Of a DNA stretch of 64,000 bases, positions 3,710-17,948 are shown in pieces (within the stretch, counting starts at the first letter, position 1; each line of letters opens with the position of its first letter). This DNA is from Thermothielavioides terrestris NRRL 8126. Its lineage: Eukaryota; Ascomycota; Sordariomycetes; Sordariales; Chaetomiaceae. Under the pieces are notes generated by a model. That model had not been told where the DNA came from, made no database searches, and saw nothing but the letters and a program-made list of their open reading frames with translations. The translations under genes and the position numbers were made by a program. The stretch is taken from positions 1,798,001 through 1,862,000 of the forward strand of contig NC_016457.1 of assembly GCF_000226115.1 (NCBI RefSeq). Reading direction: 5' to 3'.

Positions 3710-3747
3710 GGTACCTTAGCGCGCCAGGGGGGGGTGGCAAAATGGTC
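3710..3747 (+). repeat. Left terminal inverted repeat
   Basis: 38-bp repeat, inverted copy at 17911-17948 with one mismatch (TGGCA here, TGCCA in the other copy read in the same sense). It lies at the GC-to-AT transition and includes a run of eight G. It is not itself visibly RIP-mutated. Confidence 0.92.
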
Positions 3748-5225
3748 TCGGTTACCGTCTTGCAGCGTCAAGATATTTCGCTTGGAAAATAGACGCCTAC
3801 CGGTCCCCACTGTAAGACAGCTTCAGGAAGAGTCAATCTAACAGCTATATAATCATTCTATCTAGGAGATTACTAGTAAAAGAGTTTGCGTTAGCTTCAA
3901 TAGGTCTTGACTCGAATAGATCTTACAGTTGTATATGTCCTAAGACGTTACTGTTGCTTTAGACCTACGATATCTCTAGAAGACATTATTTTAGATTATA
4001 ATATTATTTTAAATATATAACATTTCTACTAAGTATAGTCTTCTAACTATAAAATCCTATATTATAAATAATATCTAGAATTATATATTAACCCCTATTA
4101 ATAATACACTGTTGTCTTTGGGATATCCTAATAAGGATGTATCTTAAAGCTTAAACTATATCTTCGATCTAGGATTATATTCAAATCTGAATATAGTAAC
4201 TAAGAGATAGTATCCTACAACTAGAGGACAGTCCTACTAGTAGAGCTTGTTCTTTTTTACAGTTAAGCACTATAGCCATTTTCGATATATAAGTTAGTTC
4301 TTAGCATTGAGGATCTTCTTCGGCAAGGGTAATAGGTTCTAATAGAAGGATATTTTATAGTTGAGATAACTCTCGGCTTATATGGTAATGTCGTTGCTAG
4401 GTACTAATTTATATATAGATAGACATATTAATTCAAGCTATTGCAACTCTATCTACTATCCTAGTTCAATGTACCACCTTTTATTGGCCCGCCTCTTGTT
4501 GCCTCGCTAGATAGTATCCCGAATTGTAGTCTCTATCGGCATTGCGCTTCTAGATACTATATTTATATCGTTTATCTTTTAGGCGAATAAGTAGCTCCTA
4601 TTATAAAGGTTAATGATTAGCTGATTATACTAAATACTTATAATAGTATAATAAACTTAATATACTTACTATTATATCGATCCTATTGCAGAGCCAACGT
4701 TGTATATACTACTTGTTATAATCCGCTCTTATTAGCGAGATAGATAGATAATGGTTTAGAACTAGCTAACTAGTCTAGCCAATATATAGAGTCCTAGTAT
4801 TGCGGTAGCAACTACGAAGTCGAGCGAAACTAAGTAAATAGCAAGCAAAGAGGCGAGGGACGCTATAAACGGCGATAGATTTCGGTTGCCTAGATATTAC
4901 GTCTAACCTGCCTAGCAGATAGCTTATAAGTATAAGAACTATATATATCTACATCGCTTTATCGACGTAAGAATACTACTAGGAGTAAGACTAACTACGA
5001 AATATCTCTAGCTACTAAGAAGCTCTCTTCTATTTACTCGATGTAATGCGAGTAGCTATCGGCTATTATACAATAGGAGATCTAGATCTAGGATACTATA
5101 GCTCTAGGATTTTATAGTTAACCACCTATACTAGAGTAAGTTTAGATGTCAAGTACTAGGAGGCAAGCGCTTACTTACTTTGAGTTGTTAGCTAGCTTAG
5201 TAAGCTATTATATCTTATATCGAGT

Positions 5226-5345
5226 CCTACGTTGTAAAGACCGTTCTTAGCGATTAATGGTTAGTAGTTACGCCACCGGTATTAGGTCCTTCCTACGTTG
5301 CAATAACTGTTCCTAGCGATTGATAGTTAGTAGTTACACTACCTA
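5226..5345. repeat. Two-copy ~54-bp direct repeat, period 66
   Basis: Units at 5226-5279 and 5292-5345 both begin CCTACGTTG and share GTTCYTAGCGATTRATRGTTAG. Their differences are mostly C/T and G/A transitions, as expected when RIP decays a duplication. Confidence 0.75.
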
Positions 5346-5489
5346 CTATAACTAATATCGCTTAATGTTAGTTTATAGTAGTTGAAAGTTACAACGTATA
5401 CACTTATATATATTATCAAGGTTTATAACTAAAAAAAAAGATATGATATAGCTATAGGTTTAACGCTTATTAAGTCCCGTCGGTAACTG

Positions 5490-5606
5490 GCAACTAGATA
5501 GTTGTAATATTGGAATACGCTTATATCTATAGACAATTAGAACTATAAAACTAGCGTCGGTATACCGACGCTAATTAAGACGATAGCTAGCAACTAGATA
5601 GTTATA
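5490..5606. repeat. Direct repeats 100 bp apart flanking a perfect 22-bp palindrome
   Basis: GCAACTAGATAGTT occurs at 5490 and 5590. Between them, at 5552-5573, is the perfect palindrome TAGCGTCGGTA/TACCGACGCTA. Its GC-rich core stands out from the AT-rich surroundings. Confidence 0.85.
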
Positions 5607-15650: not shown

Positions 15651-16089
15651 GTAGGCTAGTATAGTAGGCCAATATAACGCAATAGTTACTAATCTCGTAG
15701 TTAGATCGTCTTAAAGACTTCGTAGATTGCCTTCTAGATTAACTGCCTATATACATTAGATATACCACTAGACGATTTCACAGTTAGTCAAATACATTGC
15801 GTTGCTTTAGCTAATTTATATAGGACCTAAGAGACAATCGTTAAGCTACTAACCCTACTATATACACCCTTAAAGTCAAGAAGCAACGGTAAACCTAGTG
15901 ACTAACTGTAAAACAGATATAAGTAATTATTAGCAATCTAAACTACTTCTATTAAATCATAGACTATCTTATATATCGATACCCCTTCTCCTATAAAGTA
16001 GTCTTAAATCAAAGACCAACTCTTAGTCGATACCCTCTCTACTATAGCTTAGTTCAAATTGTATTTAAGTCGTAGACTATAGGATAACT

Positions 16090-17005
16090 CTATTATAATC
16101 GGGTTAGCAATAGCTTTAAGCTCCTTCTAGTGCTCCTTATACTCCTTGCAAGTAGCTTGCTAGTTCTTATCGAGCTAGTTAACGATTTTATTAATCCTAG
16201 AGCAGAGTATATTCTTATCCAACTCGTCGAGCTAGTTGACGATCTTATCAATCTCGGAGTAGAGTATATCGAGCTAGCTAATAATCTTGTTAATCTTAGA
16301 GCAAAGCGTGTCGAGCTAGCTAACAATCTTGTCAACCTTAGAGTAGAGTATATTCTTATTCAACTCGTTGAGCTAGTTGACGATTTTATTATCTTAGAGT
16401 AGAACGTATTCTTGTCCAACTCGTTGAGCTTCTTATCTATATTAATATAATAGACTTTAGCCTTATCCTCCTCCTTAAACTTCTTAGCCTTAGTAAATAT
16501 ATATACGCTCGATCTCCTCTTTAGATAGGCGGCCCTTGTCGTTAATAATAGTAATATAGTTGGTCTTGCTAATGCCCTTCTCAAGAGCTAAAACGTTTAT
16601 AATCAAAGTCGAAGGTAACCTTAATATATAGGATATAATACTATTGGCATCAAGGTCGAAGGTAACCTTAATCTACAAGACACTGTAGGGAGTAGGCAGA
16701 ATACCTATAAGCTCAAACTTACTAAGTAGGTTGTTGTCTAGTACGCTAGTGCTAGTTGTTAGAGAAGGTCGAGAAGACCGACTTCTTAGTTGGAATAGTA
16801 GTGTTATATAGGATAAGCTTGGTCATTATACTACTAGTAGCCTCGATACTAGCCTTGATACTAGCCTTGATACTAAGCAATAGAGGGGCGATATCTAAAA
16901 GGATCTCGTTAGTCGACTTCGAGGTAGTGTCGCTAGATAGGATAGTAGCTTAAAGGTCGAAGGTAACCTTAATCTATAGGATACTATAGGGAGTAGACGG
17001 TACTA
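16090..17005 (-). pseudogene. RIP-mutated Hsp70 (cytosolic, SSA-like) relic
   Basis: Reading the minus strand from 17005 to 16090 gives Hsp70 phrases in the correct order: ATILSSDTTSKSTNEILL, the MTKLI and TTIPTKKS region, DNNLLSKFELIGI, IKVTFDLDANSI, ALEKGISKTN, INDKGRLSKEEIER, KKFKEED, then LDKN*QATCKEYKEH*KEL and ANPI. These cover the end of the ATPase domain, the substrate-binding domain and the lid. The wording matches cytosolic rather than ER Hsp70. Stops replace Gln and Trp. There are also frame changes and small internal duplications (a 12-bp unit repeated near 16845, and KVTFD repeated near 16610 and 16970). The ATPase N-terminal half was not found. It is either captured cargo or a host duplicate trapped in the element. 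Confidence 0.8.
16172..16425 (-). repeat. Five 42/57-bp repeats in the Hsp70 relic lid region
   Basis: Units start with GAGCTAG (plus strand) at about 16172, 16229, 16271, 16313 and 16370. Lengths alternate between 42 and 56-57 bp. On the minus strand they encode a 14- or 19-residue helical unit like LDILYSEIDKIVN, which resembles the KLDAADKEKL...IDxxVxWLD helix of the Hsp70 lid. It is an expansion of one lid helix, not seen in ordinary Hsp70s as I know them. Confidence 0.75.
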
Positions 17006-17910
17006 ATACCCTAAGAAATAGATAGAAGTGGTTGCCTAATTTTCGAAATATAGGTGGTTAGGATCTAAGATGCTTAATACGCTTAACGCTCCTAGCTAAT
17101 ACTAACTAATTTATCTCTATTACCAAAAGTAGCCTATACTATCTCCTAGGGTATAACCCTTTCTATTATAGTATAGTTTAAGTTATAAACTATCTAATAT
17201 ACTAATACCGCCTCTACTATAAAGTAGTCTCGAATTATAGATTGACTCTAAGTTAATACCCTCTCTATCGTAGCTCAATTCAAGTTGTAGCCCGTCCAAT
17301 ATGCCGATACCCCTCTACTACAAAGTAGTCTCGAGAATCATAGACTATCTAATACGCTAATATCTCCTCTATTGTAAATAGTCTCGAATTGTAGACTGAT
17401 TCGTATATCGATACCCCCTTAATAACAAAACCTATCTAGGTATAGTTCCTTTATATAAAAAAGAACATCCCTTGAAAAGAATAGCTGTTATTACTAGGTA
17501 TTTTTACCCCTACGATATATTCCTTATCTATATACTATCACTAGCTAGAATAAAATGTAGATTCAACACTATATTGCTAGTCGGAGTTGATTACTATAAA
17601 TAGAAATAGTCCTTCGAGTAGAAATATATATATAGGAGCAAGATTAACTGAAAATGGAGTCAACTATATAGTGGGGACAGAAGCTATAGCATAGACATTG
17701 TAGCTAGGGTGGATATACTACCTTAGCAGTACAACGCACTCAATTGAACACTATTATAGGGACCGTTTTGTCGACGAAAGAATATCTGACTAGAATCAAA
17801 CACCAAGGATTTCACAATTTTAGCTCTACGAGTATAGCCGTGATGGTTTTGGTATAGACATATGGTTATACAGCTACAATACCATCTTATGGCGGTAAAA
17901 CCTTGGTGGT

Positions 17911-17948
17911 GACCATTTTGGCACCCCCCCCTGGCGCGCTAAGGTACC
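17911..17948 (-). repeat. Right terminal inverted repeat
   Basis: Inverted copy of 3710-3747. GC-rich host DNA begins directly outside it (AAAGGGTTTG). Confidence 0.92.

Follow-up and report, generated by a model that had tools for sequence, protein, structure and literature searches.

The window analyzed here is a stretch of 64,000 nucleotides from Thermothielavioides terrestris NRRL 8126 (C1:1798001-1862000; the genome comprises six contigs totalling 36.9 Mb), and it raises the question of what an AT-rich block within it once was. The GC content of 1-kb intervals was 32-37% across positions 4001-18000, versus 55-70% on both sides. We consider it very probable that this block was once an autonomous DNA transposon of the cut-and-paste type, now inactive, which had a RAG1/Transib-type transposase, possible BAH-like docking and a captured piece of an Hsp70 gene, and was later mutated by repeat-induced point mutation (RIP), a genome defence of the fungus itself. 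At the sequence level, this reading is supported by terminal inverted repeats (TIRs) and TA duplications, by additional long copies, by short copies sharing those ends and by two conserved genes that face in opposite directions.

Inverted arms were found at 3710-3774 and 17884-17948, and include a core matching at 37 of 38 positions. Together with the GC profile and the pairing of the ends, they bear out the proposal of an initial annotation, made from the letters alone, that this is a single AT-rich block bounded by TIRs, with host GC content outside. Searching the genome with a 32-mer from the TIR core (up to three mismatches) yielded 34 sites, 18 on the plus strand and 16 on the minus strand, including both ends in the window; a reversed control pattern gave none. 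Among the loci retrieved with a looser match, TA lay directly outside 45 of 47 distinct ends, the other two being both ends of a single 941-bp copy with AA/AA flanks. Because of this copy, the dinucleotide is identified as a duplication of the target rather than part of the repeat. With the TA at 3712-3713 and 17945-17946, located by comparison of element ends, being the target site duplication (TSD), the element proper therefore extends from 3714 to 17944 (14,231 bp; C1:1801714-1815944), as delimited by the paired ends and by a colinear copy on contig C2. Its left TIR core (3714-3747, plus strand) starts with CCTTAGCGCGCC and its right core lies at 17911-17944 (minus strand), both placed by alignment of the inverted arms and the genome search, and the termini read CCTTAG..CTAAGG. 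The initial annotation had considered GGTACC on both sides as a 6-bp duplication; the insertion site reads GG-TA-CC, in which the outer GG and CC are target sequence.

The same annotation had proposed looking for further copies by means of the TIR and asking whether their boundaries coincide with it, and they do. The copy at C2:343419-376657 is colinear with the element end to end, in the opposite orientation, and is interrupted twice by non-matching sequence, of roughly 10.6 kb and 8.2 kb. A diverged copy at C3:2600026-2658002 has the same repeat, with TA, at each end, and the two stretches of it compared match positions 7283-11680, 11731-13783 and 17404-17948 at 57-61%. In total, 21 pairs of plus and minus TIRs were obtained, including these two copies and the window element, with three further plus ends unpaired. 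Thirteen pairs span 0.93-1.5 kb, and all eight of the short copies measured had a GC content of 25-28%. Two pairs (8.6 and 9.2 kb; L057 and L058) contain an insert bounded by direct repeats of about 250 bp, probably a long terminal repeat element; we rejected them as deletion forms of the 14-kb element, which they match only near the ends. Three pairs 28.7-29.7 kb apart (C1:2309317-2339059, C1:5865462-5895060 and C2:4987319-5016007) are candidates for nested insertions or other large elements. When the flanks of one short copy were joined, the resulting 28-mer was found at 480 places in the genome, 240 per strand, with up to three mismatches (e.g. C1:182410-182437), and all 100 listed occurrences are exact. 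They represent empty sites within a repeat that is abundant and seems to escape RIP. Two different elements (C1:1327902 and C4:3493254) are inserted at the same TA of this repeat.

The RIP-mutated state of the block, also claimed initially, is evident from the RIP indices, with TpA/ApT at 1.64 and (CA+TG)/(AC+GT) at 0.47 in the element, versus 0.68 and 1.19 in the host part of the window. The window and C2 copies differ by 1,725 transitions and 118 transversions over 13,664 aligned bases, the transitions being most frequent at C before A and at G after T; their divergence is therefore, as read from these counts and contexts, nearly all RIP-like. Transversions are unevenly distributed, with 13 per 8,967 aligned bases in the core (6414-15413), 54 per 2,361 (2.3%) at 3714-6113 and 49 per 1,794 (2.7%) at 15414-17513, and the final 430 bases are low again (2 per 433). 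This mosaic pattern suggests that the core was exchanged between copies.

RIP produces transitions only, and genes were therefore sought through purine/pyrimidine (R/Y) statistics, for which 13 long open reading frames (ORFs) of the host served to train a dicodon R/Y model. For 7283-10582 the model favoured a single minus-strand frame, which scored 14.5 log units better than the runner-up, and a plus-strand reading was rejected. Three sub-stretches gave the same frame with margins of 3.8-5.2, the C3 copy yielded it with a margin of 14.3, and the correct reading was obtained for five of five host ORFs that had also served in training (margins 2.6-8.4). Stop counts fail to mark this frame, which is therefore invisible by eye. 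Transversions between the window and C3 copies were distributed over codon positions 1, 2 and 3 of the minus frame as 117/990, 76/990 and 222/988 (P=1.6e-21), and no codon-position pattern was detected in an outside stretch at 10700-11600 (P=0.25). By this measure, the gene was formerly under purifying selection.

The translated frame (X at stops) was matched in part at eight places in the genome with 28-100% identity, all with stops. An earlier alignment (A1) used as a query returned no homologue at E≤0.01. An alignment of seven genomic copies (A3) retrieved one stop-free protein, P0001 (990 amino acids, E 8e-253), and P0001 as a query gave 27 further homologues, including proteins of Xylaria such as F5Y01DRAFT_325814, CHGG_09509 of Chaetomium globosum and DFP73DRAFT_598577 of Morchella. 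Alignment of A3 with the 28 homologues by hhalign gave a probability of 100 (E 1.4e-128, 763 columns). In the FastTree phylogeny, the branches of which are lengthened by RIP, the window, C2 and C3 copies formed one clade (1.000). This clade joined two copies from the same genome (C2:6.47 Mb and C1:5.48 Mb), and the whole assemblage lay beside a group containing P0001, P0002, a C. globosum protein and the copies at C1:3.09 and C1:7.74 Mb. These four additional relatives (C1:3094916, C1:7743894, C2:6475429 and C1:5485692) are ridden with stops, 28-40% identical and assigned to two other lineages.

P0001 had no Pfam match at E≤10, and PDB sequence searches gave nothing useful, one returning thioredoxins at E 0.034-0.1. 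The Plavaka profile PF18759 matched four of the 28 homologues at E≤1, one of these lying at the cut-off, and none of the genome's own copies; when ten homologues were rescanned, P0013, P0014 and P0020 matched it at E≤0.01, the best being P0013 (5.4e-6). PF02992 (Transposase_21) had no match in this genome, and its control was likewise silent in every genome. The predicted fold of a homologue resembles RAG1 (the recombinase of vertebrate antibody genes), ProtoRAG and Transib over about 370-430 residues, with the catalytic and zinc residues in the same order. For the motifs lying between the second D and the last E, C(2)C followed by H(3-4)H, the counts among homologues were 27/28, 27/28, 23/24 and 24/24. 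For the last catalytic Glu, E717 was dropped, as E986 fits better; among the 12 homologues with both motifs found in order, the distance from H967 to E986 is 19 residues in 11 and 18 in the other, the P0001 spacing being counted by hand because the script picked a wrong GExK there. The structural alignment ranges stop at model residue 990 and RAG1 residue 966. We infer from the model a catalytic triad ending in E986.

The initial annotation had recognized no transposase; one of RAG1-like type, placed in the CMC/CMCT clade, was thus found on the minus strand at 7531-10891. These ends are approximate and come from frame statistics and homology, the C-terminus being set by alignment to P0001, to which the N-terminal part aligns poorly. 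By alignment, the first catalytic Asp site (8945-8947) is Asn in the window copy, the second Asp codon (8696-8698) is kept, and both positions of the C(2)C motif (8630-8641) are Tyr. Motif comparison with homologues places H(3)H, again with Tyr at both positions, at 7604-7618, and the proposed last Glu codon, kept, at 7544-7546, a position counted from that comparison. All of these are minus-strand features.

The TA duplications, a hallmark of Tc1/mariner, might alternatively indicate that a mariner-like transposase encoded elsewhere moves these ends and that the RAG1-like gene is cargo. This is very unlikely, as the RAG1-like gene is carried by the window, C2 and C3 copies alike and was under purifying selection, and Pfam found no Tc1/mariner domain in the six frames of the element, a scan with sensitivity lowered by RIP. 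TA duplications are also described for ESTA, an EnSpm-like group, in the accessible part of PMC12730594.

An insert in the transposase was predicted to have a BAH-like fold. The resemblance was seen in two models sharing one alignment, weaker on the second, and the insert (P0001 residues 313-508) corresponds, by P0001 alignment and the predicted model, to 9017-9625 on the minus strand. The RAG2 PHD finger is a chromatin reader serving RAG1, and a BAH insert would do likewise within one protein. We propose tentatively, as a reading somewhat less likely than not, that these fungal RAG1-fold transposases may have a built-in BAH chromatin reader steering integration or docking to histone state. 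It is also conceivable, to a degree approaching even, that the insert reads no histone mark and serves as a scaffold or as a part making dimer or DNA contacts. This would be consistent with the modest Z on the second model, with the lack of a Pfam BAH match in the 28 homologues at E≤1, and with the absence of most of the insert from two of them.

The second gene (13300-15660, plus strand) was located by stop counts, frame statistics and matches in other copies. There are 42 stops in the 787 codons of its frame; the two remaining plus frames have 80 and 111, and the minus frames 43, 57 and 109. The gene has matches in the C2 copy (79%), in part in the C3 copy (46%) and, again in part, at C1:3100635-3101033 (27%, E 6.3e-5). 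The last of these is separated by 3.4 kb from the transposase relative at C1:3094916-3097225 and has the opposite orientation, and the divergent two-gene plan is therefore common to a separate lineage. By analogy with TnpA, the accessory protein of En/Spm, the product is probably an accessory protein. Of the at least four plus-strand coding tracts initially proposed, this one alone found support, the largest gene being on the minus strand. No gene could be assigned within 3714-7280.

The Hsp70 relic noted in the initial annotation proved genuine. A Pfam scan of the six frames (X at stops) detected Hsp70 at E 2e-6 and 0.052, a baeRF match at E 0.22 being taken as chance. The captured fragment, with internal duplications, lies at 16086-16949 on the minus strand and also matches the single host gene found by DNA search, on C6 (L060), a gene called Hsp70 here on the basis of its reading frames, which match the element. 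In a piece of 148 bp, the host has G/C and the element A/T at 31 of the 33 transitions, and there are two transversions; a longer piece shows 121 transitions and 31 transversions, with gaps in 111 columns. The fragment is present in the window and C2 copies in different arrangements and had no match in the C3 stretches compared. Tandem duplications with a spacing of about 56-141 bp were observed in the second gene (15206-15543) and in the Hsp70 fragment (16170-16448). The initial view of a multi-gene class II element bounded by TIRs is supported. Its size, TIRs and several genes would also suit a Maverick/Polinton, as hinted initially, or another virus-like element. We regard this as exceedingly improbable, given a TSD of 2 bp rather than 6, the lack of polymerase, integrase and capsid profiles in the six frames (where RIP lowers sensitivity) and the lack of any match at E≤0.001 between the P0001 model and a viral library. 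Elsewhere in the window, a perfect 39-nt direct repeat (3423-3522, spacing 61) lies just outside the element, and ARAGORN found no tRNA.

For a cut-and-paste transposon, the minus-strand gene would encode a RAG1/Transib-type DDE transposase that binds the TIRs, cuts both ends and inserts at TA with a 2-bp stagger, and the short elements would be mobilized in trans. The BAH-like domain, which separates the N-terminal part from the RNase H part, may aid docking on chromatin, with the plus-strand gene supplying the probable accessory protein. The element acquired a piece of a host gene for Hsp70, and its copies were mutated by RIP afterwards.

The class itself is already known, but in searches of open-licence papers we came across no account of this lineage, of its BAH-like insert or of the captured Hsp70 fragment. 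An anonymous AT-rich block can be assigned to a classified transposon lineage with a transposase unrecognized by Pfam in these copies, and transition-blind statistics can reveal genes beneath massive RIP. The Hsp70 fragment is a record of a host chaperone gene fragment captured by a fungal class II element. Should the BAH-like insert be a working reader, RAG-type transposases could bear their own chromatin-targeting module, and the chromatin choice of such enzymes would be testable with the existing Xylaria homologues.

We assign the element to a CMC/CMCT-clade lineage with termini unlike those given for Plavaka or EnSpm, as compared by description with the available part of the source. An RNase H-type DDE transposase akin to RAG1/Transib was found in the homologues and linked to the window family by hhalign; the homologues carry C(2)C as well as H(3-4)H, at positions that read Tyr in the window copy; and the TSD, TA at 45 of 47 ends and AA/AA at two, falls within the 2-5 bp of the clade. 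The termini are CC..GG rather than CA..TG, which the accessible text gives for "most cases", not as absolute. Plavaka is similar in C(2)C, H(3-4)H and 2-bp TSD, and its profile PF18759 had matches at E≤1 in four of the 28 homologues. It differs in having TGT..ACA or CATCA..TGATG termini, according to the part of PMC12730594 available, versus CCTTAG..CTAAGG here, and no Pfam match was obtained in the window's family or P0001. ESTA, EnSpm-like transposons of rust fungi with a TA TSD, resemble the element in this TSD and in their RAG1-similar CMCT-clade transposase, as stated in the same portion of PMC12730594; they differ in host group, and the likeness is one of description rather than of sequences or termini. 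EnSpm/CACTA elements share the clade's signature residues. En/Spm also has a two-gene plan, as the element does. The fungal EnSpm families differ in having, as far as the available source describes them, CAC..GTG termini and a 3-bp TSD, versus CC..GG and TA. Finally, RAG1, ProtoRAG and Transib share with the element the predicted fold and its residue order, and differ from it in the BAH-like insert, the TIRs and the TSD, which is 5 bp in Transib and RAG and 2 bp here.
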